Position numbers and translations under genes: made by a program. The notes beneath the pieces were generated by a model. It saw only the letters and a list, made by a program, of their open reading frames with translations. It was not told where the DNA came from and made no database searches. A DNA stretch of 64,000 nt from Chitinophaga cymbidii. Lineage in GTDB: Bacteria > Bacteroidota > Bacteroidia > Chitinophagales > Chitinophagaceae. Of this stretch, positions 22,198 through 38,226 are shown piece after piece (the first letter of the stretch is position 1; every line of letters begins with the position of its first letter). The stretch lies in NCBI RefSeq assembly GCF_007992715.1, contig NZ_BKAU01000001.1, positions 1,426,001-1,490,000 of the forward strand, in the 5' to 3' direction.

Positions 22198-22228
22198 ATT
22201 CATATATAGGTATAGAGAAAAAGAGGAA

Positions 22229-22288
22229 TAAAAAAAGCGGTAAGAATACCGCCTTCAGAAATTTTTAACCATATCCTATGAAAAACCT
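22229..22288 (-). ncRNA. small RNA family, copy A
   Basis: A predicted minus-strand RNA of about 58 nt. It begins near CAGG after a TACTTTTA promoter box and carries the conserved box GGTTTTTCATAGGATATGG. It ends at the hairpin GCGGU-AUUCUU-ACCGC (22237-22252) and a T-run. The same box and loop recur in copies B, C and D. It lies alone between the DUF2911 gene and the cystathionine gamma-synthase-like gene, antisense to both neighbours' direction. Confidence 0.65.
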
Positions 22289-22292
22289 GCCG

Positions 22293-22352
22293 TAAAAGTA
22301 TACGATAAACGGATAAGGTAAAAACCGTTTCTGGTGAACGCATCAAAATTCC
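22293..22352 (-). promoter_or_regulatory. promoter and upstream element of small RNA copy A
   Basis: On the minus strand TTTT (22323-22320), a 19-nt spacer and TACTTTTA (22300-22293) form the promoter. The shared upstream element, whose plus-strand form is GGTGAACGCATCAAAATTCC, begins 33 nt beyond the -7 box (22334). Confidence 0.5.
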
Positions 22353-22424
22353 TCGTGACCGTCATATATCACAAGGTATGCATAGGTCTTTACCGGCATA
22401 CATACGGGAAATTCACGTGAAAGT

Positions 22425-22487
22425 GCGTAGTAATAAGCATTTCACAGCTTGCGTAATACTACGTAAGTGTTATAGTATAACTACGTA
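22425..22487. promoter_or_regulatory. operator-like repeats upstream of the cystathionine gamma-synthase gene
   Basis: ACTACGTA occurs at 22458-22465 and 22480-22487, exactly 22 nt (two helical turns) apart. CGTAGTA at 22426-22432 is an inverted copy of the core. Between the two direct copies is the perfect palindrome GTTATA-G-TATAAC (22469-22481). This arrangement looks like a binding array for a dimeric regulator. Confidence 0.45.
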
Positions 22488-22542
22488 TATCCGTTATATA
22501 TTCTGTTTTGAAGCGCCTGAAAGTCCCCATTCCCAAAATCCT

Positions 22543-22550
22543 TACCTTTG
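22543..22550 (+). promoter_or_regulatory. candidate -7 element of the cystathionine gamma-synthase gene
   Basis: TACCTTTG matches TAnnTTTG and lies 25 nt before the ATG. No -33 TTTG at the correct distance, which would fit a promoter needing an activator at the upstream repeats. Confidence 0.4.
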
Positions 22551-22575
22551 GAGTTCTCATAAAATATAGCAAACC

Positions 22576-23715
22576 ATGAAGTTAGGTACCAGGCTTATTC
22601 ACGCAGGCGTAGAGCCGGACCCCTCCACAGGGGCCATTATGACGCCCATCTTCCAGACTTCCACCTATGTGCAGAACGCTCCGGGTGATCACAAGGGCTA
22701 TGAATACGCCCGTACCCAGAACCCCACGCGCCACGCCCTACAGAACGCGCTGGCTGCCATAGAGAACGGAAAACATGGTCTTTGCTTCAGCAGCGGCATG
22801 GCCGCCACCGACGCAGTGATGAAGCTGCTTTCTCCCGGTGATGAAGTGATCGCCTCCAGCGACCTTTACGGCGGCAGCTACCGCATCTTCACAAAGGTCT
22901 ACGCCCGCTACGGCGTTAAATTCCATTTCGTGAACATGCACGACGCGCAGCAGATCGCGCCTTTCATCAACGCACAAACGAAAATGATCTGGATCGAAAC
23001 GCCGACCAATCCCTTGCTGAATATCATCGACATAGCCGCCTGCGCGGCCATTGCCCAGGAACATAAAGTGCTGCTGGCGGTGGACAATACTTTTGCCTCG
23101 CCCTACCTGCAGAACCCGCTTGATCTTGGTGCGGATATTGTAGTACATTCCGCCACAAAATACCTTGGTGGCCACAGCGATGTGGTGCATGGCGCGGTGA
23201 TCGTGAAAGACGATGCGCTCGCGGAGCAGCTGGCCTTCGTTCAGAACAGCTGCGGAGCCGTACCGGGGCCGCAGGACTGCTTCCTGATACTGCGCGGATT
23301 GAAAACCCTGCACGTACGCATGCAAAGGCATTGCGAGAACGGAGAGGCCGTTGCGCGCTTCCTGCGGGAACATCCGAAAGTTGGAAAAGTATTGTGGTGC
23401 GGATTTGAAGATCATCCCAATCATGCGATCGCTAAAAAACAGATGCGCGGCTTCGGCGGCATGATCTCCTTCACGCTGAAAGATGACAGCCAGCCGGCGG
23501 CGCTCAAGGTATTGAGCGGTACAAAACTCTTCTCCCTGGCCGAATCACTCGGCGGCGTGGAGTCGCTCATCGGGCATCCCGCCACGATGACGCATGCGTC
23601 CATCCCGAGAGAAGAAAGAATAAAGAACGGGCTGACGGACTCGCTGATGCGGCTGAGTGTAGGCATCGAAGACGCCGCCGACCTGGTGGAAGACCTGAAA
23701 CAGGCGATAGGCTAG
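22576..23715 (+). CDS. cystathionine gamma-synthase/lyase family PLP enzyme
   Basis: 379 residues of the Cys/Met metabolism PLP family (fold type I). It has the substrate-side [28 protein letters not shown] and the Schiff-base Lys195 in [12 protein letters not shown]. It converts O-acylhomoserine with cysteine to cystathionine or cleaves cystathionine. Sequence alone does not separate synthase (MetB) from lyase (MetC/CTH-like). There are no other methionine genes nearby. The upstream region has an operator-like repeat array. Confidence 0.9.
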
Positions 23716-23816
23716 TTTCAGCGCCGGATTAGAAAAACCGGGAGAAACACCTTACTTTTAGCCGATACACCTACGTCCCCGCTGCATTGCAGCGGGAGTC
23801 CATATACCATAACCAT

Positions 23817-24590
23817 ATGAAGTCCCAACAACTGAGAGATTTTTTAGACGCCAAAGCGGCATATTACAATCAGCCGGCGTTTGTAGCCGGGGACCCGATC
23901 AGCATCCCCCACCGCTACAGCCTGCTGCAGGACATCGAGATAGCCGGACTATTTGCCGCCATACTGGCCTGGGGCAACCGTACTACTATTATCAACAAGT
24001 GTACGGAGCTGATGGAGCTCTTTGATAACGCACCTTACGATTTCATCCTGAACCACCAGGCGCAGGACCGGATGCGCCTTATGGGCTTCAAACACCGGAC
24101 CTTCAACGGGCTGGACCTGATGTATTTCGTAGAGTTCCTCCAGCACTATTATTCCAATGTGACCTCCCTGGAATTCGCTTTCAGCGGGCACATGGACGAT
24201 ACGGACAAAGACACGGAGAAAGCGCTCACCGGCTTTCACAACATGTTCTTTACCCTGGAGCACCCGGAACGCACGCGCAAGCATGTTTCCAGCCCCGAAG
24301 GCAATTCCGCCTGCAAACGGCTCAACATGTTCCTGCGCTGGATGGTGCGGAGCGATGAAAATGGCGTGGATTTTGGTTTATGGAAATATATTTCGCCTTC
24401 GCAGCTCGTATGCCCGATGGACGTTCACGTCAGCCGCGTGGCGGCAAGGCTCGGGCTCATTGAAAAAGCGGAAGCCAACTGGAAAACAGCACAGGAGCTG
24501 ACAGCCATGCTCCGGACGCTCGATCCCGAAGATCCGGTCAAATATGATTTTGCGCTGTTTGGCCTGGGGGTGATAGAAAAATATGTTTAA
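23817..24590 (+). CDS. TIGR02757 (DUF2400) family protein
   Basis: 257 residues from ATG 23817. The family pattern is present: an N-terminal helical LRDFLDAKAAYYN and later ILAWGNRTTIINKC, CKRLNMFLRWMVR and PMDVHVSRVAARLG. The fold is related to HhH-GPD DNA glycosylases, but activity is unproven. A perfect 8-bp hairpin (23778-23796) with a 3-nt loop lies in the leader. Confidence 0.88.
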   Translation: MKSQQLRDFLDAKAAYYNQPAFVAGDPISIPHRYSLLQDIEIAGLFAAILAWGNRTTIINKCTELMELFDNAPYDFILNHQAQDRMRLMGFKHRTFNGLDLMYFVEFLQHYYSNVTSLEFAFSGHMDDTDKDTEKALTGFHNMFFTLEHPERTRKHVSSPEGNSACKRLNMFLRWMVRSDENGVDFGLWKYISPSQLVCPMDVHVSRVAARLGLIEKAEANWKTAQELTAMLRTLDPEDPVKYDFALFGLGVIEKYV

Positions 24591-24654
24591 GATAAAAAGT
24601 TACGAATGAAACCGAAAGGTTCCATGAGGCCAATAAAAAGACAAACAATTACGA

Positions 24655-25593
24655 ATGAAAAAGATTACCGGATTGGCAGCACTGCTCTGCAGCTTTGCTA
24701 TTTCGCTCTCCGCGCAGGAATATGTGGAGCTTGATTACAAATTTAAAACGGGGGATGAGTTTGCATTGCAGCAGGAAAGCCGCAGTGAAACCTACATGAC
24801 GGTAAGTGAAGTGGTGCAGCGCACTACCCGCGACTACAATACCCAGATGACCATCAAGGTTACCGAATCAGGCCCCGGCCGCGTACTGCTGGCCTGGATG
24901 TACACCGACCTGAAGTTTAACTTCAACGCCAAGAACGTTAATATATTCGTAGACGCGAAAACCACCAGCGAAGAACCCCTGCAGGGCGCGCTCAAACTGA
25001 TGCTGGACCAGCCTTTCACCGTAGAGATACAAACCAACGGCATCATCAACAAGGTAGATGGCCTGGATGCGCTGATGGACAAAGCTTCCGCCGCCTTCTC
25101 CTCACTCAAGTCAGATGAACAGGAAGCCTATAAAAAGCTCCTGAAAGATCAGTTCGGCACCGACGCTTTCCGCTCCTGGCTGGAACAATTGCTGGTAATA
25201 TACCCGGTGCACGGCATCAAGAACGGCACCCAGTGGGAAGAAACCGTTCCGCTGAGAACAGGGCTCAAAGGCAGGGTAGACCTTTACTGGAACCTGCTTT
25301 ACTGGGACAGCAACTCGGCCAAGATCAACGGCACCGGCAACGTGAAAACTGATAAAACAGAAACTTTCACCGTGGAAGACGGCATACAGGCCACCGCTTC
25401 CATCCAGGGCACACAGACCAGCAATTACGTGATCAACCGCGAAAGCGGCTTCCCGAGCCTTTGCGTGCAGCATACCGAGATGAACGGCGAATACGTTTAT
25501 CTTGCCAACCGCAAAAAACAGCTGAGAAAAGACCTGACCGTGCCCGTGCGCATTACCACCAACGCATCTTACAAGATCAAGCAAATGAAATAA
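24655..25593 (+). CDS. DUF6263-like secreted protein
   Basis: 312 residues with a signal peptide (1-21, cut after LSA), then a beta-rich region without membrane segments. The pattern YKFKTGDEFALQQES and the later TQTSNYVINRESGFP fit the DUF6263 family, which is of unknown function. It is coupled to the next gene through a 1-nt stop/start overlap (TAATG). Confidence 0.7.
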   Translation: MKKITGLAALLCSFAISLSAQEYVELDYKFKTGDEFALQQESRSETYMTVSEVVQRTTRDYNTQMTIKVTESGPGRVLLAWMYTDLKFNFNAKNVNIFVDAKTTSEEPLQGALKLMLDQPFTVEIQTNGIINKVDGLDALMDKASAAFSSLKSDEQEAYKKLLKDQFGTDAFRSWLEQLLVIYPVHGIKNGTQWEETVPLRTGLKGRVDLYWNLLYWDSNSAKINGTGNVKTDKTETFTVEDGIQATASIQGTQTSNYVINRESGFPSLCVQHTEMNGEYVYLANRKKQLRKDLTVPVRITTNASYKIKQMK

Positions 25594-25928
25594 TGTCCGG
25601 ACGTTACCTACAGGAAACCGGCGAATGGCTGCAGGAAAATGCGGGCATTCGTGTACCCGCCGCCGTAAGCATGGAAGACCTGCGGAAACGGCTGGCAGAA
25701 AGGCTTGAAGTATTGGTGGAGCGGGACTTCCAGCAGTTCGTGCTGCTGCTCTACCAGGTAGATGTATCGGAGCGGAAGGTAAAAGAGATCCTGGCGGCCG
25801 AAAGCTACCCGGACGTATTCAATTCTCTCGCGCAGCTGATCATCGACCGGCAAATGGAAAAGATCCGGAGCCGGGAGATATACCGCCAGCCTCCGGAAAG
25901 TCTTACAGACGACGAAGAAAAATGGTAG
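25593..25928 (+). CDS. small helical hypothetical protein
   Basis: 111 residues starting at the ATG that overlaps the preceding stop codon. It is predicted helical and strongly charged (RKRLAERLEVLVERDFQQF), with no signal or membrane segment. The tight coupling to the DUF6263-like gene suggests a joint role, but I do not recognise a family. It ends 7 nt from the convergent fatty acid hydroxylase gene. Confidence 0.7.
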   Translation: MSGRYLQETGEWLQENAGIRVPAAVSMEDLRKRLAERLEVLVERDFQQFVLLLYQVDVSERKVKEILAAESYPDVFNSLAQLIIDRQMEKIRSREIYRQPPESLTDDEEKW

Positions 25929-25934
25929 AAAAGA

Positions 25935-26600
25935 TCACTTCTTCTCGAACATCAGCGCCTTCACTTTCTCCTTGTCTTCCCGCTCTTTTTCCAGATCAAA
26001 GAAGGTACCGAACACGTGGTCCCAGAAAGCGGTGCTCACGCCAAATCCCTTGTCATCATTCTTATAATGATGCAGGTGATGATTGCGCCACAGCGGTTTC
26101 AGGAACTTGAACGGCGGGTTCCAGGCGTGGATGGCATAGTGCATGCTTCCATACAGCAGGTAGCCGAGTATAAAACCCGGGAAGAACATGAACGCCGCCT
26201 TGCCTATTAACAGGTATTGTATGGAGAACAATATCGACGAGATGATGATGCTCGGCACCGGCGGCATGAACAAGCGCTGTTTGTCACGCGGATATTCATG
26301 ATGGTTGCCGTGCAGTACGTAAACGAACCGCCTCATCCGGGGATTTTCCGTTGCGAAATGGAAAAGGAAACGGTGCATGACGTATTCAAACAACGTCCAT
26401 ACAGCCAAACCGCTGACAAATACCGCGGCGATCCGTCCAATACCGAACCCTAACGACGCATTGCTGTAGTAAAGCATATAGCCGATAATAGGCAGATACA
26501 TACCCCAGATGATCAGGGGATGTGTTTTAGTGAGTACTTCCAGATATTGACTCTCGAATAATCTTGCCTGTCCTTTGTTCTTAATTTTGTCAAACTTCAT
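25935..26600 (-). CDS. sterol desaturase/fatty acid hydroxylase family protein
   Basis: 221 residues with four membrane segments and the di-iron histidine boxes HRFLFH, HGNHH, HYAIH and HHLHH. The layout resembles fatty acid 2-hydroxylases. In Bacteroidota such enzymes may hydroxylate the acyl chains of sphingolipids or ornithine lipids. Substrate is inferred from the family, not shown. Confidence 0.88.
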   Translation of the reverse strand: MKFDKIKNKGQARLFESQYLEVLTKTHPLIIWGMYLPIIGYMLYYSNASLGFGIGRIAAVFVSGLAVWTLFEYVMHRFLFHFATENPRMRRFVYVLHGNHHEYPRDKQRLFMPPVPSIIISSILFSIQYLLIGKAAFMFFPGFILGYLLYGSMHYAIHAWNPPFKFLKPLWRNHHLHHYKNDDKGFGVSTAFWDHVFGTFFDLEKEREDKEKVKALMFEKK

Positions 26601-26698
26601 GACTCCTAAATTTTAAAAATCAAATTAATTTGCCTTTTCGGTAACAGGAGTAGGGAAACAATCTTTTCAAGTTACAGCCGGGGGACTTCCGCTACATC

Positions 26699-28648
26699 TC
26701 AAAGGTCTTCCGACAGCAACCGGGGTATGGTAACCAATTCATATTGATTACGCTGCAAATATCGTATCAATTTATCCAATTGAAAATAAAATTTATCTAT
26801 ACGCCGTGGGTCTGTACCAATATGCAGCAGCAGGATAAACCCGTTAAGCCCCGCTGGCCGCTGATTTTCAAAGTGTAAGATAGATTGGAGGATGGTCTCG
26901 CTGTCCCGGTAACTTTTCCCCATTTCAGGGTAAGTGTAGTCCGCCGTGCTGCGCGTTCCGGGGCTGAAATTCACCAGTTGCAGGCCCAGACCGGAAGTCC
27001 ACTGCACAATGGAATCATTGTACCATTCATACGGCGGCAGGAAATAGTGCGGCGCCGGAAGGCCGTGCTTTTCCATGGCCCGGTAGTTCAGCGCCAGATC
27101 GTCCTCAAACTGCCGGCGGGTCACCAGCAGGCTGTCCCGCTTCGCCCAGTCGCAATACAGCAAATGCCGCCCGGAATGCGGCCCCAGGTAGTGCCCGTCT
27201 TTCTTCAGCCGCCGGATCAGGGGGGCGAAAGCTTCCGTTTCATAAAAGGTGCCTGTCAGAAAGAACGAGGCCGGCGCCTTGCGTTTCTTCAGCACGTCCG
27301 CAATATGCCGCCCGCCATCCGCGAATTCATGCCCGGTAAATACGATGGCTATACGCTTTTTGGTGGTATCGCCCCGTGTGATGGCGGCGGGTGGCTGCCC
27401 CAGTCCGGCCGTAGCCTCTTCAAAAAGTGAAAGGTCCGGTTCGTGCGGGCGGTTGCGTTGCAGCTCGTGCTGATAGATGATGTCCCCTACTTCTTTAAAA
27501 AAAGGATACCCGATTTCCTCGTATTCGTATTTGTTATCGTTCAGCACGCCGTCCCGGTTCACATAGATATTCCCGCTGATCATGAACTCCACTTTGTTTT
27601 TGAAGTCCGCGAAATAAGCCACATCCGTCAGGAAGCCGTAAGACCAGCCGGTCTTATTGAACACCCGGATGTAAGGTGGTATTTTGCCTTTGCCGGCCTT
27701 GAACCGGAAAAACTTCGTGTAGCTGTCAAAAAATTCCGTGGTGTCGTAAGCGGGATGGCGGGATTCAAAAGGCAGGGCCGCCATGTACCGGTATAAAAAA
27801 CGGTAATCGTCCGCCGCCAGGTTGAACCGTTTTGACGCCGGCACCGAAGCGGGGAACAACACGGATTGCAGCTGCTGCTGAAGGTCTTCCAGCGGGGCAT
27901 TGTTGTGCCGCGTGAAATCCATCGGCGTGTTTACAAGCTGCTCGTTTCGGTCGTAGTGCGCTTTCCCGATGAATACCGGTTTGCTGAAATCATACGTCAG
28001 GGTGCTGACGGCGGCGGGCTGATCGTATATGAGCTTCCCGTCCCGCTCAAAGCGCACGGGGTTCGTATGCCGGTTCTCTTCTTCATTCATCGATACAAAA
28101 CGGCGTACGATACGCATCCGCGGATATCCTTTCGCCCACAGCTTTTCATGGATCGTTTGCTGCCCGATGAATTCATACAAGCGGTTGTACGCATCGTTGT
28201 CGCTGACGAGGAACACTTTTTTGATGTATTGCGCAATGGACGGCAGGCCGTTTTCCGTCGAAGTGTCCCGGTATACGCGCGACTGCCCGCTGAAAGCGCT
28301 GTCCGTGAACATCGGCGTGTATTTGTCAAGCCCCTGCATGTTCAGCTCGTTCAGTTTTTCCAGCGCGAGAAAGGCCAGTGGCATTTTTACGGTGGATGCG
28401 GGATTGAAATACTGATTTGCGTCCAGATGATAATAGTAATGCCTGAATACCGGCCTGTTCTTCGCATCGCGGTTAATTTGGGTGTAGATGAGCTGGCAGT
28501 GAAAGGAATCGGGATGCTGCAGTACATGCCGCAGCGCGGGCGAAGCATGTTTGAGCAGCAGCTCCTCCAGGAACCGGTCCGTTTTCGGCTGGGCCATGGC
28601 AGTGAGGGCGCAAAGCAGCAGGATGATGGTTGACGATAAGCGAGGCAT
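26699..28648 (-). CDS. fusion of a serine beta-lactamase-like hydrolase and a polysaccharide deacetylase domain
   Basis: 649 residues with a signal peptide (1-19). The first part (about 25-400) has the penicillin-recognising motifs SxxK (Ser85-Thr-Val-Lys88), SDN (149-151) and KTG (332-334). The second (about 430-645) is a NodB-type deacetylase fold with HSGRH (His490 and His494) and a C-terminal LLLHIGTD. The NodB Asp-Asp motif is replaced by FTGHE, so metal binding may differ. Both domains could act on peptidoglycan in the periplasm. The gene is monocistronic and its start is divergent from the FAH gene. Confidence 0.85.
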   Translation of the reverse strand: MPRLSSTIILLLCALTAMAQPKTDRFLEELLLKHASPALRHVLQHPDSFHCQLIYTQINRDAKNRPVFRHYYYHLDANQYFNPASTVKMPLAFLALEKLNELNMQGLDKYTPMFTDSAFSGQSRVYRDTSTENGLPSIAQYIKKVFLVSDNDAYNRLYEFIGQQTIHEKLWAKGYPRMRIVRRFVSMNEEENRHTNPVRFERDGKLIYDQPAAVSTLTYDFSKPVFIGKAHYDRNEQLVNTPMDFTRHNNAPLEDLQQQLQSVLFPASVPASKRFNLAADDYRFLYRYMAALPFESRHPAYDTTEFFDSYTKFFRFKAGKGKIPPYIRVFNKTGWSYGFLTDVAYFADFKNKVEFMISGNIYVNRDGVLNDNKYEYEEIGYPFFKEVGDIIYQHELQRNRPHEPDLSLFEEATAGLGQPPAAITRGDTTKKRIAIVFTGHEFADGGRHIADVLKKRKAPASFFLTGTFYETEAFAPLIRRLKKDGHYLGPHSGRHLLYCDWAKRDSLLVTRRQFEDDLALNYRAMEKHGLPAPHYFLPPYEWYNDSIVQWTSGLGLQLVNFSPGTRSTADYTYPEMGKSYRDSETILQSILHFENQRPAGLNGFILLLHIGTDPRRIDKFYFQLDKLIRYLQRNQYELVTIPRLLSEDL

Positions 28649-28685
28649 ACCTTAAAGCTATAAAAATTTCGTTCTCCAAAAGGGC

Positions 28686-28693
28686 TATATTTG
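28686..28693 (+). promoter_or_regulatory. candidate -7 element of the FAH/flavin reductase pair
   Basis: TATATTTG matches TAnnTTTG exactly. It would give a leader of about 205 nt before the FAH gene. Within that leader a 15-codon open frame (28742-28789) begins with ATG and ends TGA. Its relevance is unknown. Confidence 0.4.
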
Positions 28694-28903
28694 AAGCCGT
28701 AAAAACACCAAAACGCAACGGACAGGCCTGGGAGAAGACAGATGGAGCGTGGCTGCCGCATTATCCACCTGACATGCTTCCGGGCCTGACACAGACCATT
28801 AAAAAATCAAACCAGACCAATGAAACCGAGCATGGTACATTTATCGCACAAGGCTATGTTAATGCGAGGTTCCATCTGGCCAGTAAAAAATCAATTTTAA
28901 CAG

Positions 28904-29923
28904 ATGAAACTTGTTACGTATTTAAGAGAGGAAGTAGATCAGCTGGCGATGCTGGTGAACGGGCAACTGTACAACCTGCAGGAGCTGCACCCGGACCTGC
29001 CCACCACCATGCACATGTTCCTGCAGATGTGGGAAGAAGTGATCGACCTCGCCAAAAGCATCGATGCGCAGCTCAAGGCCGGCAAAATGCCAAGGGCCAA
29101 CACCTGGGGCGTGCCGTATGACAACGCTACCCTGCTGGCGCCGGTGCCTTTCCCCACTTCCTGCCGTGATGGCTATGCTTTCCGCCAGCATGTGGCGGCG
29201 GCGCGCCGTAACCGCAAAGTGGACATGATCCCCGAATTCGATCAATACCCGATCTTCTATTTCACCAATCATAACGCCATCCAGGGCCCCGGCGACATTT
29301 ACTGCATGCCGGACCACTTCAGGAACCTGGACTTCGAGCTGGAAGCCGCCATCGTGATCTGCAAGCGCGGCCGCAATATCACTGCGGAAGAAGCGGATGA
29401 ATACATCGGCGGATATATGATCATGAACGATATGAGCGCGCGCCTGCTGCAAATGGAAGAGATGAAGCTGAACCTCGGCCCCGCCAAGGGGAAGGACTTC
29501 TCCACCGTTATCGGCCCGATGCTCGTAACAGCGGATGAGCTGGAACCTTACCGCATCCCCGCGAAAGAAGGGCATACCGGCAACGCCTTCAATCTCTCCA
29601 TGCGCTGCTGGGTAAACGGCCAGCAGGTGAGCGAAGGCAATATGGGCGATATGGACTGGACCTTTGCGGAGATCGTGGAGCGCTGCGCTTATGGCGCGGA
29701 CATCCTGCCCGGCGATGTGATCGGCAGCGGAACAGTGGGCACCGGTTGCTTTCTTGAACTGAACGGCACCGGCAAGCTCAATGACCCTAACTACACGCCG
29801 CAATGGCTGCAACCCGGCGATGTGGTGGAAATGGAGATCGAAGGGCTTGGCAGGCTGAAGAATACCATCGTTGCGGAAGACTCGGAATTTTCCATACTGG
29901 CCCGGAAAAAGAACGTACAATGA
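28904..29923 (+). CDS. fumarylacetoacetate hydrolase family protein
   Basis: 339 residues with the FAH core. DFELEAAIVICKRG carries the metal-binding Glu residues, and GSGTVGTG and LNLGPAKGKDFSTVIGP are also present. The family hydrolyses or decarboxylates 3-oxo and 2-oxo diacids in aromatic and sugar-acid breakdown. The stop overlaps the start of the flavin reductase gene (ATGA), so the two act together. The exact substrate is unknown. It could be fumarylacetoacetate, given aromatic amino-acid genes elsewhere in the window. Confidence 0.88.
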   Translation: MKLVTYLREEVDQLAMLVNGQLYNLQELHPDLPTTMHMFLQMWEEVIDLAKSIDAQLKAGKMPRANTWGVPYDNATLLAPVPFPTSCRDGYAFRQHVAAARRNRKVDMIPEFDQYPIFYFTNHNAIQGPGDIYCMPDHFRNLDFELEAAIVICKRGRNITAEEADEYIGGYMIMNDMSARLLQMEEMKLNLGPAKGKDFSTVIGPMLVTADELEPYRIPAKEGHTGNAFNLSMRCWVNGQQVSEGNMGDMDWTFAEIVERCAYGADILPGDVIGSGTVGTGCFLELNGTGKLNDPNYTPQWLQPGDVVEMEIEGLGRLKNTIVAEDSEFSILARKKNVQ

Positions 29924-30801: not shown

Positions 30802-30808
30802 CGGAAGC

Positions 30809-31558
30809 TTAGCTATTGCCCCCGAAAACTTTCTTTAGCAACTCGGAGGTCCTGGCCGCGGGGTTTTCACGGATAGACAGCTCTTCTTTCGCGATCTGGT
30901 CGAACAGCGCTTTCACCGCTTTTTCCGTTACATATCCTTTCAGGTCAGGATTGAGCTTGTTGAAAGTGGTAGGCAGGCTGTTGTATTTTGTGACGATATC
31001 ACCGTAGTATTTCGTGGCGCTGGTCGTGTTCAGCGCACTGTCGATCACCGGTGAAAATGCCGCCGTCAGCTGCGCGGTCGTCTTGTTCTGGAAGAAATCC
31101 GTTGCGGAACGTTTGTTGCCGCTGGTGAGCAGTGCAAGCGCATCGTTGATGGTCATTTGTTTGATGGCATTTACAAAGATCGGTTTGGCAAAACCCACGG
31201 CCTCTTCCGCCGCGCGGTTGATCTGCAGGATGGCTTTATCCACCTGGCTGCCGAGGCCGATGCTGCGCAGGGCTCTCTCGGCCTTCAGCGCGTCCGGCGG
31301 TAATAACACCTTGTAGAGTTCATTCCCGAAAAAGCCATTCTCTTTGTTGAGCAATGAAATGCCGGCGCTGACGCCTTTTTCCAGCGCTTCTTTGATACCC
31401 ATTCCCGCTTCATTCTCGGAAACATTCGCGGTGGAACCGCCTGTAGAGGCGGATTTCAGAATACCGGAAGCTTTTTTCAGTATCTGCGCTTCGGTAACAG
31501 TGTGCAGGCATAATACACCCGCCATCAGTAAAACAGTTCTTTTTAGCATAGTTCTCAT
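30809..31558 (-). CDS. DUF4197 domain-containing protein
   Basis: 249 residues from the ATG at 31558 (31549 also possible), with a signal peptide ending AEA. The mature protein is helical with the family pattern GIKEALEKGVSAGISLLNKE and LLTSGNKRSATDFFQNKT. DUF4197 proteins are periplasmic and of unknown function. The gene starts 10 nt after the universal stress protein gene on the same strand, so co-transcription is likely. Confidence 0.88.
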   Translation of the reverse strand: MRTMLKRTVLLMAGVLCLHTVTEAQILKKASGILKSASTGGSTANVSENEAGMGIKEALEKGVSAGISLLNKENGFFGNELYKVLLPPDALKAERALRSIGLGSQVDKAILQINRAAEEAVGFAKPIFVNAIKQMTINDALALLTSGNKRSATDFFQNKTTAQLTAAFSPVIDSALNTTSATKYYGDIVTKYNSLPTTFNKLNPDLKGYVTEKAVKALFDQIAKEELSIRENPAARTSELLKKVFGGNS

Positions 31559-31568
31559 CACAGGGATT

Positions 31569-32396
31569 TTATTCATGAATAGATAGTAACGGGATGTGTG
31601 TATTGAAAGCGATCCTCGAAGTGGTGCTGCGTTTGAAAATGCTGTCGAACAGCCCGTGTTTTTTCGGGATGATGAGCAGCAGGTCGGCAGCCTCCTTTTC
31701 GGCAAACGCTGTAATGCCTTCCACCGTATTCGGATGGTCTACAAAATGATATTGCGGATTGTAGTTGTGCAGCATGTTGTCCAGCTCCTGGTTTTCTTCC
31801 GGGTGGATGTGCTCGCGGCCTTCCTTCTGGATGTTCAGTACATGCAGCTCCGGTTTGAAGATATCGAGCACCATATGCAGCACGTCTTTGCGGGTGGTCT
31901 TGGCCACTTTGCGGAGATCGCAGGCGAATACTACTTTCCGGATTGGCCGGAAGCTTGCCTGGGTGGGCACTACGATCACCGGGAAATTGGAGTTCTTCAC
32001 CACGTCCACCGTATTGGAGCCTACCAGTATCTCTTCCAGCTGGCTGCCGCCGGTGATGCCCATAATGATCAGGTCCGCCTGTTCGTCTTTGCAGACCTGG
32101 TCGATATTGGCGGCCAGCAGATGGTTGTCCGCCCGGAAATCCAGCGTTACGCTTGCCGGAAGGGCCGGGGAAAGAAGCGATTTCATTTTCTCCAGACCTT
32201 CAATGCTGGCGGCCTTCAGGTCGTCCATATTCACCATGGGCACGGCGGTAGGGAGGTCTGGTATAGGCACGATCAGCTCATACGCATGGTAAAGTATGAT
32301 GCGGGAAGCGCCCGTCTGCTCCGCGAGGCCAATGGCATAGCGGGCAGCGTTATAGGCTGTTTCCGAGAAATCTGTTGGGACAATGATGGTTTTCAT
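31569..32396 (-). CDS. tandem-domain universal stress protein
   Basis: 275 residues with two UspA folds (about 1-145 and 150-275). The first has the ATP-binding pattern GITGGSQLEEILVGSNTVDV. The second is more divergent (IPKKHGLFDSIFKRSTTSRI). UspA proteins bind nucleotides and respond to stress. It is the first gene of the unit with the DUF4197 gene. Confidence 0.9.
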   Translation of the reverse strand: MKTIIVPTDFSETAYNAARYAIGLAEQTGASRIILYHAYELIVPIPDLPTAVPMVNMDDLKAASIEGLEKMKSLLSPALPASVTLDFRADNHLLAANIDQVCKDEQADLIIMGITGGSQLEEILVGSNTVDVVKNSNFPVIVVPTQASFRPIRKVVFACDLRKVAKTTRKDVLHMVLDIFKPELHVLNIQKEGREHIHPEENQELDNMLHNYNPQYHFVDHPNTVEGITAFAEKEAADLLLIIPKKHGLFDSIFKRSTTSRIAFNTHIPLLSIHE

Positions 32397-32566
32397 GCCG
32401 GGTGGTTTTAACTACAATTTAAGCAATAACCGAACCAATTACAGTGACTAAAGGAACAAAAAAAGTTGATATCCGTCATCTGCCGCAAGGCAATTTGGAT
32501 ATTTTTTAACAGGATGGTCATGCTGAAATAGCATGTTTCCATGCAGGGAAAACCACTGAAATCAAC

Positions 32567-32574
32567 TATTTTTG
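32567..32574 (+). promoter_or_regulatory. candidate -7 element of lysS
   Basis: TATTTTTG fits TAnnTTTG and would give a leader of about 50 nt. No -33 match. The spacer 32397-32566 shows only an imperfect hairpin around GCATG. Confidence 0.4.
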
Positions 32575-32632
32575 CACTCCGTTGCACGGCCCTGGCGCCG
32601 CATGACGGTCAAAACCAGTATTACAAACAAAA

Positions 32633-34159
32633 ATGAGCGTAACTACCCAACAACAGCTATCTGAGCAGGAGATCATCCGCCGTGAGAAGCTCCAGGAGCT
32701 TACAAACCTGGGCATCGACCCGTACCCGGCGCCCGAATATCCCGTGAATGCATATTCCGTGGATGTCAAGGCCGGCTACTCCGAAGAAACCAAAGATCAA
32801 TACCAGGACCTCTGCCTCGCGGGCCGCATCATGAGCACCCGCGACATGGGCAAGGCGAACTTTGCGGTGCTCCAGGACAGCAAGGGACGCATCCAGCTAT
32901 ATATAAAACGGGACGAGATCTGTCCCGGTGAAGATAAAACCCTGTACGACCAGGTATGGAAAAAGCTGACGGACATCGGTGATTTCATCGGCGTGAAAGG
33001 TTATGCTTTTGTGACCAAAACCGGCGAAACTTCCATTCACGTCAAGGAACTGACCGTTCTCGCCAAATCGCTCCGTCCTTTACCCGTCGTGAAGGAAAAA
33101 GAAGGAGAGACCTTTGATGCGGTGACCGATCCGGAATTCAAATACCGTCAGCGGTATGCGGACCTCGTGATCAATCCGCAGCTCCGGGAAACCTTCATCA
33201 AGCGCACCCGCCTGATGCAAACGATCCGGGATTTTTATAACGGGCTGGGATACCTCGAGGTAGAAACGCCCATCCTGCAAGCGATCCCCGGCGGAGCGGC
33301 TGCCCGCCCTTTTATCACGCATCACAATGCGCTGGACATGCCGCTGTACCTCCGCATTGCCAACGAACTGTACCTGAAAAGGCTGATCGTAGGCGGCTTT
33401 GAAGGGGTGTACGAGTTTGCGAAAGACTTCCGGAATGAAGGGATGGACCGTACCCACAACCCCGAGTTCACCGTGATGGAAATGTACGCCGCGTACAAAG
33501 ACTATGAGTGGATGATGCGCACTACGGAAACATTGCTCGAAAAAGTGGCCGTAAATGTGAACGGCGACTCCAAAGTGCAGGTGGGCGATAAAGTGATCGA
33601 CTTCAAAGCACCGTACCGCCGCGTAAGCATGTACGACGCTATTAAGGAACATACCGGCATCGATATTACGGGCATGGACGAAGCGCAGCTGCGCGATGTC
33701 TGCAAGCAGCTGGACATCCACGTGGAAGCCAGTTCCGGTAAAGGCAAGCTCATCGACGAGATCTTCGGGGAAAAATGCGAGCATCACTATGTGCAGCCCA
33801 CATTCATCATCGATTATCCCGTGGAAATGAGCCCGCTGACCAAGAAGCACCGCAGCAAGGAAGGCGTGGTGGAACGCTTCGAGCTGATCTGCAACGGCAA
33901 GGAAATTGCCAACGCCTATTCCGAGCTGAACGATCCCATCGACCAGCGTCAGCGCTTTGAAGAGCAGGTGTTGCTGATGGAAAGGGGGGATGATGAAGCG
34001 ATGTATATCGATTATGATTTCCTGCGCGCGCTGGAGTACGGCATGCCGCCGACCTCGGGTATCGGCATCGGTATTGACAGGCTGACCATGCTGATGACCA
34101 ACCAGCCGTCTATCCAGGATGTGCTGTTCTTCCCGCAAATGCGGCCGGAGAATGCCTGA
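32633..34159 (+). CDS. lysS: lysyl-tRNA synthetase (class II)
   Basis: 508 residues. An OB-fold anticodon-binding domain (about 55-170) precedes the class II catalytic core with motif 2 [18 protein letters not shown] and motif 3 [15 protein letters not shown]. Charges Lys onto tRNA in the cytoplasm. It ends at an intrinsic terminator. Confidence 0.96.
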
Positions 34160-34187
34160 TGGAAAAAATATTTGAACTTTTTACAAG

Positions 34188-34219
34188 AGGATGTATCAAC
34201 GCGATACATCCTTTTTTTA
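34188..34219 (+). terminator. terminator of lysS
   Basis: AGGATGTATC (34188-34197) and GATACATCCT (34203-34212) form a 10-bp stem with a 5-nt loop and a following T-run. Confidence 0.9.
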
Positions 34220-34365
34220 TCCCTGAGCAGCCTTCGTTTGTGTTCCTGTCAACACAACGGCCACACGGCCGGCCGGCCCGGCCACTAGAACGTCGCCATC
34301 AGGGAAAACAGCCCCCTCATTGAACCCCAACCCCGCTTTTGGGGTTATTACCTAAACTTCTACCC

Positions 34366-34743
34366 ATGAAAATTCTCATTCCCACTAAATTCGCCATCGT
34401 GCTGTACGCACTCGTATTCCTGTACTTCGGTTTCAATCACCTCGCGCACGGGCAGGAAATGGCGCCGCGTGTGCCCGTTCCCGGTGGCGCTTTCTGGATA
34501 TATTTCACCGGCGTGGCCATGATAGCGGCCGGCGTGGCGATCATTTTCGGGAAACCGGCACGCATTGCAGGATACTTGCTGGCCTTGCTGCTGCTGACAT
34601 ACATCATTTCCATCCATTTACCGGGACTTATCCAGGGAAAACTGGAAGCTCCCGGGAACCTGCTGAAAGACTTCGGCCTCATGGCCGGCGCCATTATCAT
34701 CGCCAACATTGCACCAGAAAAGAAAAACAGGGCGGTAAACTGA
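34366..34743 (+). CDS. DoxX-like four-helix membrane protein
   Basis: 125 residues from ATG 34366 with four hydrophobic helices, the pattern FLYFGFNHL and a central GVAMIAAGVAIIFGKPARIAG typical of DoxX-family proteins. The family is linked to quinone or redox functions in the membrane, without a defined reaction. The coding end overlaps a hairpin that is part of diverged small-RNA copy E. Confidence 0.8.
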   Translation: MKILIPTKFAIVLYALVFLYFGFNHLAHGQEMAPRVPVPGGAFWIYFTGVAMIAAGVAIIFGKPARIAGYLLALLLLTYIISIHLPGLIQGKLEAPGNLLKDFGLMAGAIIIANIAPEKKNRAVN

Positions 34744-34783
34744 ATTACTGCCCTGCTTTTTTTGACCATATCCTATAAAAAAC
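34723..34783 (-). ncRNA. diverged small RNA family relative, copy E
   Basis: The minus strand has the box GTTTTTTATAGGATATGGTC (34783-34764) and a downstream GGGC...GCCC hairpin (about 34729-34754) with T-tracts. The hairpin lacks the invariant AUUCUU loop. On the plus strand it also ends the DoxX gene with a run of T. The promoter and upstream element seen in A-C are missing. It may be a degenerate copy or only a terminator with a chance box. Confidence 0.35.
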
Positions 34784-34975
34784 TATTTGAATATACTGTG
34801 GTTTGTATATAATATATAACGCCACTTACTGCTTTACGTGCCTGGCTTCATAACCGGTTGTTTTATGACGATGGCCGGTTACCATTGATATATTTCCTTT
34901 CCATATATTCGCTTTTCATCTTTATTTTCGTCGGATAGCGGCGAAAAGCACCGCAATTTCAACCTGTTTAAAATT

Positions 34976-37105
34976 ATGAGAAGTACATCCAAATCCTTCC
35001 CGGCATGGCTGGCCGGTCTATCCCTGCTTGCAGTATTACCAGCCGCTGCCCAGGAGAAAAAAGAACTGACCTTCGACCAGATCTTCACCCATCCCGTGAG
35101 CATCACGGAGCCGCTGCCGCAGATCCGCGGGTGGGCGGACAAAAGCCATTACATTGAAACGCGCAACGGGCAATCGCTTTCGGTGGATGCCAGGACCGGG
35201 AAAACGTCGCCATACACCGCACCGGCGGAAACCGGCAGCACCGTATCCGTGAAGGACAACGATATTTTCCTGCGAACGCCCTCCGGCGAAGAGATCCGGC
35301 TAACACAGGATTCCGCGGTGGAAAAGAACCCCACCCTTTCCCCCGACGAAAAATATGTGGCCTTTACCCGTAATAACGACCTGTATGCGGTGGAAGTGGC
35401 CTCCAAAAAAGAAACACGGTATACCACCGACGGCTCTGATGTGGTATACAATGGATGGGCATCCTGGGTGTACTATGAAGAAATTCTCGGCCGCGCTTCC
35501 CGCTACCGTGCCTTCTGGTGGAGCCCGGACAGCCGCCGGATCGCATTCATGCGCTTCGACGATACGCAGGTACCGATGTTCCCCATCTATAGCGAAGTAG
35601 GCCAGCATGGCTTCCTCGAAAGAACACGCTATCCCAAGGCGGGTGATACCAATCCCGAAACGAAACTGGGCGTTGTGCCCGTCACCGGCGGAAACATCAC
35701 CTGGGCGGATTTCAATTCCAAAGACGACCAGTATTTCGGTCAGCCCTTCTGGACACCCGATGGCAGCGCGCTCTGGGCGCAATGGATGAACCGCGGGCAG
35801 GACAATCTCATTATCTATGCCATCGATCCGCAAACCGGCGCCAAAAAGCCGGTGTACGACGAAAAGCAGGCTACGTGGATCGACTGGTTCACCGATATTC
35901 ACTACCTCTCCGGCAACAAAGGCTTTATCCTGAAAAGCGACAAATCCGGCTGGGACCACATCTACCTGTTCAATATGGACGGCAGCCTGAAGGAACAGCT
36001 CACGAAAGGCGACTGGCGCGTGCGGCAGATATTACAGATCGATGAAAAAAAACAGGTGATCTATTTTACGGCGCGCAAAGAAGCCAGCACCCGTTTTGAT
36101 CTTTACAAAGTAAGCCTTCGCGGCGGTGAGCCCCAACGCCTGACCTTCGGTGATTTCTCCCACGACGTAAAACTGGCGCCGGGCGGGGATTACTTCCTCA
36201 CCGTTTACAGCAACATGCGCACACCGCCCAGGATGGCGCTGCTGAACGACAAAGGCAAGGTGATCCGCGAGCTGGGCAACGCCAGAGGCGAGGCATTCGA
36301 CAACTATGTGCTGGCCCTGCCGGAGCTGCGGACCTACAAGACCCGCGACGGCCTCGAATTGCCGATGACCATCATCTGGCCGAACAAAATGGAAAGCGGT
36401 AAAAAATACCCGGTGCTGATCAGCATTTACGGCGGTCCGGATGCCGGCACCATCTACGATACCTGGCGCCCCAACCCGGCCACCCAATGGTACGCCAAAG
36501 AAGGGCTCATCCAGGTGGTGATGGATAACCGCGCCGCCGGCCATCTCGGCAAGAAAGGCATGAACGCCATCCACCGCCAGCTGGGCAAACACGAGATCGA
36601 GGATTATATGGACGGCGCCAAATGGCTGATCACCCAACCCAACGTGGACGCCTCGAAGATCTGTATCACCGGCGGCAGCTTCGGCGGATATATGACCTGC
36701 ATGGCGCTGACCTACGGCGCGGAGGTATTCACCCACGGCGTCGCCAACTTCTCGGTGACGGACTGGCAACTGTATGACAGCCATTACACAGAACGTTATA
36801 TGGACACGCCGGCGGAAAACCCCGAAGGCTACCGCATCACTTCGGCGATCACCCACGCCGCGAAATACAAGGGCCTCCTGCGCATCATACACGGCACAAT
36901 GGACGATAACGTGCACCTGCAGAACACTATTCAGCTGGTGAACCGCTTCCAGGACCTCGGCAAACACTTTGAGCTGATGCTCTACCCCGGCGAACGCCAT
37001 GGATGGGGCGGGCCCAAAGGCACCCATTCGAAGAACGAGATGTACCGTTTCGTGTATGCAAACCTGTTGGAGAGACCCCTGCCGGAAGGGTTTAAAGGGA
37101 ATTGA
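34976..37105 (+). CDS. S9B dipeptidyl peptidase IV-like protease
   Basis: 709 residues with a signal peptide (1-25, cut after AAA). A beta-propeller (about 60-430) has the double-Glu substrate motif WVYYEEILGR, which anchors the free N-terminus. An alpha/beta hydrolase domain has Ser568 in GGSFGGYM, Asp643 in MDDNVHLQN and His675 in GERHGWG. This is the complete catalytic triad of DPP-IV, which removes X-Pro dipeptides from the N-terminus. Likely periplasmic and nutritional. Confidence 0.93.
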   Translation: MRSTSKSFPAWLAGLSLLAVLPAAAQEKKELTFDQIFTHPVSITEPLPQIRGWADKSHYIETRNGQSLSVDARTGKTSPYTAPAETGSTVSVKDNDIFLRTPSGEEIRLTQDSAVEKNPTLSPDEKYVAFTRNNDLYAVEVASKKETRYTTDGSDVVYNGWASWVYYEEILGRASRYRAFWWSPDSRRIAFMRFDDTQVPMFPIYSEVGQHGFLERTRYPKAGDTNPETKLGVVPVTGGNITWADFNSKDDQYFGQPFWTPDGSALWAQWMNRGQDNLIIYAIDPQTGAKKPVYDEKQATWIDWFTDIHYLSGNKGFILKSDKSGWDHIYLFNMDGSLKEQLTKGDWRVRQILQIDEKKQVIYFTARKEASTRFDLYKVSLRGGEPQRLTFGDFSHDVKLAPGGDYFLTVYSNMRTPPRMALLNDKGKVIRELGNARGEAFDNYVLALPELRTYKTRDGLELPMTIIWPNKMESGKKYPVLISIYGGPDAGTIYDTWRPNPATQWYAKEGLIQVVMDNRAAGHLGKKGMNAIHRQLGKHEIEDYMDGAKWLITQPNVDASKICITGGSFGGYMTCMALTYGAEVFTHGVANFSVTDWQLYDSHYTERYMDTPAENPEGYRITSAITHAAKYKGLLRIIHGTMDDNVHLQNTIQLVNRFQDLGKHFELMLYPGERHGWGGPKGTHSKNEMYRFVYANLLERPLPEGFKGN

Positions 37106-37201
37106 TAGAAATCCCGCGGAAGATAAGGCAGTTGACGGCGCCCGGCAATGGAAAAACTGCTGACAGTACGGGCTGCTTCTCCAGATCAGCAAACCACAAA
37201 C

Positions 37202-37237
37202 AACAAGGGCCGCTTCTTTTCGGAAGCGGCCCTTGTT
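37202..37237 (+). terminator. terminator of the DPP-IV-like gene
   Basis: Arms 37202-37216 and 37223-37237 form a perfect 15-bp stem around a 6-nt loop, with a modest T-rich tail. Confidence 0.8.
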
Positions 37238-37259
37238 GTTTATTCAATGCGGTAGGGGC

Positions 37260-37323
37260 AAAAAAACAGGGCTGCAAGAATACAGCCCCGAAAAATTTTA
37301 ACCATATCTTTATTGAAAAACCT
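37260..37323 (-). ncRNA. small RNA family, copy D
   Basis: Minus-strand element with the box CAGGTTTTTCAATAAAGATATGG (a variant with extra bases), the terminator GGGCUGU-AUUCUU-GCAGCCC (37269-37288) and a T-run. The innermost pair is U-G on the minus-strand RNA but C-A on the plus strand, which supports the minus strand as the RNA. The promoter region is degenerate (aligned box CGAATTTC on plus, 37328-37335). The shared upstream element GGTAAACGTGCCGAAAATCC is intact at 37389-37408. Confidence 0.5.
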
Positions 37324-37488
37324 GTTACGAATTTCCATAATTTAGAAGTAACTCTAATCCTCAAACTAGCGAATGCTATAATATTTCTGGTAAACGTGCC
37401 GAAAATCCCCTTAAACGATTTGGTGCAAGGCTGTAAAAATCGCCGAAAATGGCCTTCAAGATAAGTTTATGCGAAGCGTCAGGAAATG

Positions 37489-37548
37489 AAAAAAGGCGGT
37501 AAGAATACCGCCTTTGTAATAATTTTAACCATATCCTATGAAAAACCT
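37489..37548 (-). ncRNA. small RNA family, copy B
   Basis: Best-preserved member. The RNA should start near 37548 with CAGGTTTTTCATAGGATATGG, continue through GTTAAAA, and end at the 9-bp terminator AAAGGCGGU-AUUCUU-ACCGCCUUU (37492-37515) plus a T-run. Length about 60 nt. There is no start codon with a usable frame. It lies between the DPP-IV gene and csaA, next to copy D. Confidence 0.7.
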
Positions 37549-37552
37549 GAGT

Positions 37553-37614
37553 CAAAGATATAGCGGTTCTGATCCTTCGCAACCCCATTTCCGTGAACGC
37601 CATAAAATTGTTGG
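37553..37614 (-). promoter_or_regulatory. promoter and upstream element of small RNA copy B
   Basis: On the minus strand GTTG (37583-37580), a 19-nt spacer and TATCTTTG (37560-37553) form a near-consensus promoter. The upstream element (plus form CGTGAACGCCATAAAATTG) starts 32 nt beyond the -7 box. Confidence 0.65.
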
Positions 37615-37679
37615 TAAAGGTCAAAAATCGGCTAGGCAGCATACGGATTAAATAAAAATTTAAATTAAAAATAATACCG

Positions 37680-38018
37680 TTATGCTATCCTGTGCCCGTT
37701 CTTGACAGGGCGGTCCGGCTGCAACAGCACTATTTCCTTCTCTTCACCTACCACGCCCAGCACCAGGCATTCTGAAAAGAAATTGGCGATCTGCTTGACC
37801 GGGAAATTGATCACAGCAATGACCTGCCGGCCTATTAAACTTTCAGGCTTATACAACTTTGTGATCTGCGCGGAGGAGCGTTTGACCCCTATTTCCGGGC
37901 CGAAATCCACTTCCAGCTGATAGGCGGGGTTCCTGGCCTGGGGGAATACCTTTGCGGTCAGCACCGTTCCCACATGCATGCGTACTTTCTCGAAATCGTT
38001 CCAGCTAATGGTTTCCAT
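37680..38018 (-). CDS. csaA: CsaA-type tRNA-binding protein
   Basis: 112 residues from ATG 38018. The OB fold and core VRMHVGTVLTAKVFP, YQLEVDFG and SSAQITKLY match the CsaA family, dimers that bind tRNA and have been described as secretion chaperones. The longer upstream frame to 38081 is not conserved. It lies between small-RNA copies B and C. Confidence 0.9.
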   Translation of the reverse strand: METISWNDFEKVRMHVGTVLTAKVFPQARNPAYQLEVDFGPEIGVKRSSAQITKLYKPESLIGRQVIAVINFPVKQIANFFSECLVLGVVGEEKEIVLLQPDRPVKNGHRIA

Positions 38019-38079
38019 GACATAAATATTTAATACCCGGAATTTAGCAAAAGAGAAGGAAAAAACGGGAAGGCGGGGC

Positions 38080-38141
38080 AAAAAAATAGGGCGTTAAGAA
38101 TAACGCCCTCAAGTATTTTTAACCATATCCTATGAAAAACC
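38080..38141 (-). ncRNA. small RNA family, copy C
   Basis: Minus-strand RNA of about 60 nt beginning near TTGGTTTTTCATAGGATATGG and ending at GGGCGUU-AUUCUU-AACGCCC (38089-38108) and a T-run. Compared with copy B the stem sequence differs at several positions but stays paired while the loop is unchanged. The promoter is near consensus. It lies between csaA and the aldo/keto reductase gene. Confidence 0.7.
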
Positions 38142-38145
38142 AAGA

Positions 38146-38226
38146 CAAAGATAGACACACCTTGCTTTTTGTCAATCTGGATTTGGTAAGTGAAACGATT
38201 TAGCTCGTAAACGTGTTGAAAATCCT
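38146..38226 (-). promoter_or_regulatory. promoter and upstream element of small RNA copy C
   Basis: On the minus strand ATTG (38176-38173), a 19-nt spacer and TATCTTTG (38153-38146). The upstream element (plus form CGTAAACGTGTTGAAAATCC, from 38206) begins 53 nt beyond the -7 box, about two helical turns further than in A and B. Confidence 0.65.

Follow-up and report, generated by a model that had tools for sequence, protein, structure and literature searches.

To our knowledge, most of what has been learned about regulatory RNA in the Bacteroidota comes from gut Bacteroides. The closest described system is FopS (Rfam RF04319), described as a group of 14 small RNAs (sRNAs) of B. thetaiotaomicron, conserved in the Bacteroidaceae, that have sigma-ABfr promoters and repress translation of SusC by pairing at its start; the same study reports that an RRM protein, RbpB, counters FopS and binds the 5' portions of these RNAs, and that FopS copies occur on phage contigs (PMC11697453). 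A study on the sRNA GibS adds that Bacteroides messages are without Shine-Dalgarno sites (PMC7366714). Here we describe a family of repeats in a 64-kb stretch of Chitinophaga cymbidii DNA (the window; G000:C1:1426001-1490000, on contig C1 of a genome, G000, of 6.63 Mb in 18 contigs). Judged from sequence, these repeats are very probably genes for trans-acting sRNAs of ∼60–65 nucleotides, and we consider it likely that they form a multicopy family with its own promoter, a seed that pairs with translation starts and an intrinsic terminator, constituting a Chitinophagaceae relative of FopS.

Five copies of the family (A–E) are present in the window, all on the minus strand. An earlier interpretation of the same DNA, made without database searches (the sequence-only reading), had placed four of them, A–D, correctly in position and strand, and had overlooked copy E. 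The copies are as follows, with bit scores from R1, a covariance model for which 65 distinct copies were aligned with MAFFT and the structure was assigned by hand from the sequences:

22228..22290, minus strand: putative sRNA copy A (R1 match at G000:C1:1448227-1448288, 80.5 bits; fold), with its 25-nucleotide box at 22263-22287 and a predicted terminator hairpin at 22233-22256.
34722-34785, minus strand: putative sRNA copy E, divergent (54.8 bits; pattern match with 3 mismatches; fold z −3.9).
37255..37326, minus strand: putative sRNA copy D, with the variant box GGTTTTTCAATAAAGATATGG (69.2 bits).
37485..37550, minus strand: putative sRNA copy B (81.6 bits; fold z −4.3).
38078..38143, minus strand: putative sRNA copy C (78.6 bits; 27.7 bits with the FopS model, which is below its cut-off).

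The 21-nucleotide box described at the 5' end of each element is exact in copies A and B and altered in the two others: copy C begins TTGG rather than CAGG (two mismatches), and the box of copy D carries a two-nucleotide insertion together with substitutions, which is why a box search allowing three mismatches missed it. The same search of shuffled windows gave a match in none of 100 shuffles.

The hairpins of copies A–D correspond to those described previously, and comparison across the family provided clear evidence of selection on their structure. Of the stem cells in the alignment of 65 rows, 97.4% were paired and 60 were changed on both sides, values that none of 500 shuffles reached; nor did any of them equal the covariation score, while the number of stem pairs with two-sided changes (seven of nine) was equalled by three. 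When the pairing partner was displaced by one to three columns as a sliding control, the paired cells fell to 35–70%. A second alignment of 29 Chitinophagaceae rows from several genera, assembled without Bacteroides, aligned and annotated in the same manner and used to build a second covariance model (R2), displayed two-sided changes at all nine pairs (matched by 7 of 500 shuffles) and a covariation score not reached in 500 shuffles. The earlier proposal that these are RNAs of the minus strand, kept by selection and changing their stems in a compensatory manner, is therefore upheld by covariation against both controls, and the covariation in both alignments, along with the predicted folds, identifies the element as a candidate Rho-independent terminator hairpin.

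The folded strand can be assigned from the non-canonical pairs. G-U occupies 33 stem cells and A-C or C-A only 5, which indicates that the minus strand is the one that folds; an argument first made from a single wobble pair in copy D thus holds family-wide. The same bias argues against the notion that the plus-strand reading ATGAAAAACC is the real start of small leader peptides, an idea to which we give almost no credence: the box read antisense does look like an initiation site, but the frames that follow it in four exact copies from this genome run for 98, 5, 37 and 23 codons, share nothing past MKN, and revealed no conserved frame after the ATG when one was looked for in those four copies.

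Across the family, the loop differs from the one first described. ATTCTT is indeed the loop in copies A–D, but it is neither that of copy E nor constant in the family, where its two outer bases constitute a covarying pair (AU in 55, GC in 5 and UA in 5 of the 65 distinct copies). The tetraloop inside that pair is UUCU in 35 copies, GUCU in 14, AUCU, CUCU and UUCC in 4 each, and another sequence in 4. With two of its six bases engaged in pairing and the first remaining base variable, the proposal of an invariant six-base contact site finds no support; the NUCU core that is kept could be explained by a stable terminator tetraloop, though it may also have a role.

Upstream of the box, a profile of 167 copies reads TATcTTTg at positions −13 to −6, a motif that resembles the Bacteroidota −7 box. 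An exact TAnnTTTG is present in 120 copies; the element is weak in D and E, and no −33 box stands out in the same upstream profile of 167 copies. Farther upstream lie short repeats. The upstream features of copies A–D are as follows:

22294..22302, minus strand: −7-like box TATACTTTT of copy A (sequence, family profile).
22330..22365, minus strand: upstream repeats of copy A, GCGTTCACCAGA and a poorer GACGGTCACGAG (alignment, motif count).
37364..37400, minus strand: upstream repeats of copy D, one clear and one degenerate (alignment).
37553..37560, minus strand: putative −7 box TATCTTTG of copy B (sequence, family profile).
37587..37625, minus strand: upstream repeats of copy B, GCGTTCACGG and a poorer CTTTACCAAC (alignment, motif count).
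38146..38153, minus strand: putative −7 box TATCTTTG of copy C (sequence).
38183..38220, minus strand: upstream repeats of copy C, one good (CACGTTTACGAG) and one poorer (alignment).

The motif NGTTYACS starts at −74 to −71 or at −53 to −51 in 103 of 164 copies (100 mononucleotide shuffles gave a mean of 3.1 and a maximum of 7), and 23 pairs are spaced exactly 21 bp apart. Copies A–D each display one good and one poorer repeat half, whereas none of the 18 copies in the class that resembles copy E has the motif. Repeats with this spacing have a LytTR-like look. Separately, two of 22 pairs of CGTTYACS-type repeats ∼21 bp apart have no recognised copy downstream (L030, minus strand, 492; L086, minus strand, 5991; both offsets 0-based on the reverse complement), and possibly mark other genes under the same regulator.

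The sequence-only reading had remarked that the box, read antisense, resembles a translation start, and had suggested base pairing to the beginnings of messages. Since the box, taken in antisense, corresponds to a start region, messages matching it were sought, and a conserved match was found at one gene. The best-supported candidate target, on sequence grounds, encodes a 191-amino-acid secreted protein conserved across Chitinophaga (G000:C1:137474-138046; L157/L388), whose leader and start, at C1:137463 (MKNLAALAIALVTVISGQAQ...), match the box at 19 of 20 bases in a predicted duplex of −31.6 kcal/mol. The protein has no Pfam match at E ≤ 1, and its gene adjoins genes that, judging from their translations, resemble prmA and pnp. 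Orthologues are found in 74 of the 79 genus genomes; their starts were taken as the in-frame ATG nearest the expected place, and all 74 were read. In most of those read, only a short leader separates TATATTTG from the ATG.

The best predicted duplex spans the AUG in all 74 orthologues, reaching −18 kcal/mol or better in 61 and −16 in 68. The mean duplex energy was −21.4 kcal/mol, as compared to −7.8 for shuffled seeds, none of which was as low in 200 trials; on the 50 best orthologues, control seeds that retained UUUUUCAU likewise failed (0 of 200), and the same seed averaged −9.6 and −10.6 kcal/mol against the upstream and downstream flanking regions. One branch has the leader AACCATATTTTATGAGAACC, in which C-to-T changes still permit pairing through G-U. 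For background, the level of −18 kcal/mol is attained at 4 of the 757 gene starts read elsewhere in the fetched Chitinophaga DNA and at 3 of 333 in the cymbidii genome itself. The suggestion of pairing to message starts accordingly has computational support at the start codons of one conserved gene.

Two further candidate targets in the same genome are an open frame that runs for 502 codons or more before the fetched locus ends (C1:320859; −24.2 kcal/mol) and a 65-amino-acid membrane protein (C4:339024; −24.7 kcal/mol). The 11-mer TCCTATGAAAA occurs 17 times in the genome, with 5 occurrences of the pattern read backwards; six of the 17 sites lie in sRNA copies or in a likely relative at C5:568178, and of the 11 elsewhere three were judged to be convincing starts.

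A search for further copies with compensatory changes had been put forward as the means of refuting the family, and it found them widely. In the cymbidii genome, model R1 detects seven strong copies (49–84 bits), five of them in the window. An eighth copy, at C5:438728, is divergent, scoring 28.5 bits with R1 and 47.8 with R2, and its 5' end, GUGUUUUUCAUAAGAUAUGAGAUAUGG, is closer to Bacteroides FopS. A match of similar strength at C1:137390 corresponds to the antisense strand of the start of the 191-amino-acid protein gene. All 79 genus genomes contain R1 matches, 6–25 each at E ≤ 0.01, counts that can include antisense strands of target starts (one of nine in this genome). In an even sample of the order, 104 of 298 genomes match at E ≤ 0.001: 6 of the same genus, 69 of 79 from other genera of the family, and 29 from outside the family, the last being mostly weak single matches and mostly unread. 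The best locus was read in 24 of the 69 other-genus genomes, and box and hairpin were present in all 24. The usual box outside the nearest genera is GGTTTTTCATAGGATATTGGAT..., and the local seed form in other Chitinophagaceae genera has AUAUUGGAU where Chitinophaga has AUAUGGUUA. A scan for the exact string, blind to variants, places the 25-nucleotide box in at least 114 stretches from named records; Chitinophaga is the title of 110, and beside these matches lie genes for close relatives of proteins encoded in the window. Loci from the class and phylum found with R2 and read were mostly terminators without a box; L264, L266-L268 and L272 have TTTTCAT and a hairpin, and none was counted.

The copies also occupy fixed genomic addresses. 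Copy A lies between a DUF2911 gene and a gene for a pyridoxal phosphate (PLP) enzyme of Cys/Met metabolism, and a copy is found between these genes in all 34 fetched loci holding both. Copy B is flanked by DPPIV and CsaA-like tRNA-binding genes. D-type copies, seen in 41 of the 114 fetched loci, lie between the CsaA and DPPIV genes in all 30 loci that hold both. Copy C sits between the CsaA-like gene and an aldo/keto reductase gene, an arrangement present in 4 of 4 such loci. Copy E is located before the DPPIV gene, at a place (DPPIV–LysS) occupied in 16 of 28 loci, and its terminator end is antisense to the last bases of a neighbouring open frame:

34339-34743, plus strand: DoxX-like open frame (DoxX match slightly below cut-off).

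Possession of the box was the criterion by which the 114 loci were chosen, and these fractions therefore describe conserved position, not presence per genome. The copies are not mobile. That constancy, with 16 of 28 at the place of copy E as its least complete instance, tells against dispersed repeats of the repetitive extragenic palindrome (REP) or miniature inverted-repeat transposable element (MITE) type, or bidirectional terminators, without any function in trans, as do the conservation of the box beyond the hairpin, the promoter-like element, strand-specific G-U pairs and a conserved matching target. The elements do resemble such repeats in being intergenic, hairpin-bearing and several per genome, with tandem arrays of up to six; we regard that explanation as highly improbable.

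Tandem arrays of 4–6 copies were observed at L021:2272-3292, L082:3360-4396, L114:2469-3734 and L087:2144-2947, with the same box in the copies, a promoter-like box before each, and a spacing of ∼190–320 bases. A possible further relative at C5:568178 (L142/L171) scores only 20.4 bits with R1; it has the box GGGTTTTCATAGGATATATGG, preceded by TACTTTTAG, and a more distant terminator-like hairpin. On a viral contig (L229:5674, minus strand), a family-like copy with the box GTTTTTCATAGGATATTTGATTTT, a hairpin and a T-run reads antisense into the terminal part of a gene for a terminase large subunit (PHROG match), which indicates that phages can carry such RNAs. Similar copies occur on L205, L217, L234 and L237, that on L217 adjoining a ribonucleotide reductase gene. 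These come from 49 viral matches, for which phage nature was checked on five contigs (ten proteins); many of the 49 are without a hairpin, and in so large a collection a 16-mer may turn up by chance.

The relationship to FopS was weighed with both models. At the Rfam gathering threshold the window contains no match. Below it, RF04319 aligns at full length with copies B, C and D (19.7–27.7 bits, as compared to a cut-off of 56) and with two copies in L021 (20–28 bits); its best match in the cymbidii genome, at 30.8 bits, is not a family copy, and the best copy scores 30.3. STnc430, Thr_leader, DapZ, MicX and Phe_leader were also considered and set aside, all being below their own cut-offs, though a few had better E-values than FopS. 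In the reverse direction, R2 run unfiltered on 30 loci fetched with RF04319 gave 27 best matches, all on FopS genes, and it finds FopS in 26 of the 30 at E ≤ 0.05 (these E-values are rough). The alignment between R2 and FopS reads GUUUUUCAUAG--UAUUAGAUUUAA against GUUUUUCAUAGGAUAUUGGAUUUUAA. The distance from TAnnTTTG to GUUUUUCAU is six nucleotides in 95 and five in 25 of the Chitinophaga copies, and six in all 28 Bacteroidaceae copies. In the phylum sample of 395 genomes, six match RF04319, five of them above the cut-off. One of the genomes, G459, of the same class and another family, holds a locus (L285) that scores 43.9 bits with the FopS model, which is below the cut-off, and has TTTG, GTGTTTTTCATTGTCTTAATTTT and a terminator. 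It is a possible link family; R2 matched only its hairpin part.

Several results weigh against a FopS relative that acts by pairing at starts. On the side of kinship, no copy attains the FopS cut-off of 56 bits; the matches of that model in this genome are at E 0.03 or worse, and some are the antisense of ordinary starts; at E ≤ 0.001 the search of the phylum sample returned no Chitinophagaceae family member, and on 20 loci of other Chitinophagaceae genera RF04319 gave nothing at E ≤ 1. Among the 29 rows of R2, L137 stands closest to FopS and may itself help the cross-match. On the side of function, 6 of the 74 orthologues pair more weakly than −16 kcal/mol, a sign that complementarity weakens in some species. 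With gene starts in general (333 in this genome), the seed pairs slightly better than its controls (none of 100 shuffles was as low, and one of 100 UUUUUCAU-keeping seeds), as expected for a start read in antisense, and part of any match therefore comes free. In another genus (G125), no start among 339 (20 stretches, 400 kb of 5.08 Mb) favours the local seed over shuffles, the best being −20.8 kcal/mol where shuffled seeds had a mean of −19.6 and a best of −26.6. Minimum free energy folds have the box weakly self-paired in copies A–C and partly so in D. Finally, SusC found no support as a target: none of 56 SusC starts reached −16 kcal/mol or better, and 14 of 100 UUUUUCAU-keeping control seeds paired with them equally well, the starts having been picked by a simple signal-peptide score by which some may be wrong. 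Given the absence of a seed preference at these 56 starts and the scores below cut-off, we describe the family as FopS-like rather than as a member of RF04319.

An independent origin would account for some of these observations. Many Bacteroidota messages begin AUGAAAAA, and sRNAs antisense to starts would read GUUUUUCAU for that reason, with the likeness to FopS then representing convergence. The FopS-model matches to the antisense of ordinary start codons, which mean that the seed half is easy to reach, fit such an origin, as do a target class in which SusC is not favoured and the overlap of R2 (50 genomes) with RF04319 (6 genomes) in G459 alone, at different places. The likeness extends, however, beyond the part explained by a start codon, through the alignment of GUUUUUCAUAG--UAUUAGAUUUAA with GUUUUUCAUAGGAUAUUGGAUUUUAA, and includes similar promoter spacing, size, a single terminator and the multicopy habit; we consider convergence possible but doubtful. 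As a separate observation, the FopS model matches the antisense of ordinary start codons at G000:C2:907285 (L123) and G000:C7:166151 (L124), which illustrates how such seeds resemble initiation sites in reverse.

A second alternative concerns what the RNAs do. Instead of pairing with messages, they might serve chiefly as decoys, titrating an RNA-binding protein of the RRM/RbpB type. There are many near-identical copies, the genome encodes two RRM_1 proteins (106 and 91 amino acids), and binding of RbpB to FopS 5' portions is reported in the FopS study (PMC11697453). Titration would nevertheless leave unexplained why complementarity to a start codon is kept in the orthologues of one gene, and we think it unlikely.

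We therefore favour a FopS-like, start-pairing sRNA family, which might operate as follows. Transcription of each copy, on the minus strand, would proceed from a Bacteroidota-type promoter of its own, whose TAnnTTTG lies a few nucleotides before the box, and would stop at the intrinsic terminator. Within the main class of copies the 5' box, GGUUUUUCAUAGGAUAUGGUUAAAA, hardly varies; it would serve as a seed that pairs with the translation start of a target message, most likely blocking initiation as reported for FopS. By covering the start codon, the sRNA would lower translation of the 191-amino-acid secreted protein and perhaps that of a small number of other proteins. Through the upstream repeats one regulator could raise many copies together, and an RRM protein may assist or oppose the sRNA. 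A broader version of this model, which we put forward tentatively and with slightly more doubt than belief, is that FopS represents the tip, in the Bacteroidaceae, of an ancient class of Bacteroidia start-antisense sRNAs whose seeds have been retargeted, that in the Chitinophagaceae selection has kept seed, addresses and one target leader together throughout a genus, and that the sites 21 bp apart tie many copies to one activator and make them a single switch on a small set of secreted proteins.

The presence of the family in every genus genome searched, with a seed and target that can be tested, offers a way to probe whether start-codon antisense control is general in the phylum, and also a route to how multicopy sRNAs switch targets yet keep their architecture. 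Among the matches listed in the open-access literature, no such RNA is named for Chitinophaga or the Chitinophagaceae, and the same holds for the addresses, upstream repeats and target described here. The kind of RNA, a multicopy start-codon antisense sRNA of the Bacteroidota, is already known from FopS.

Like FopS, the Chitinophaga family is multicopy and ∼60–70 nucleotides long, with a 5' seed containing GUUUUUCAU, one intrinsic terminator, a putative TAnnTTTG-type promoter of its own at similar spacing, pairing to start codons (here computed) and copies on phage contigs (reported for FopS; here L229). It differs in scoring 20–30 bits against the Rfam cut-off of 56, in having mostly a UUCU tetraloop, in the upstream repeats 21 bp apart in many Chitinophaga copies, and in its predicted conserved target, a secreted protein without a Pfam match rather than susC. 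Relative to the FopS R1/R1' seed (GUGUUUUUCAU...), GUUUUUCAU is kept and the middle differs (AGGAUAUGGUUAAAA). GibS of Bacteroides likewise pairs start regions through a 5' seed, the R1 seed that FopS is said to share; it differs from the family in its length of 145 nucleotides, its second seed (R2 of GibS) and its promoter motif (PMC7366714).

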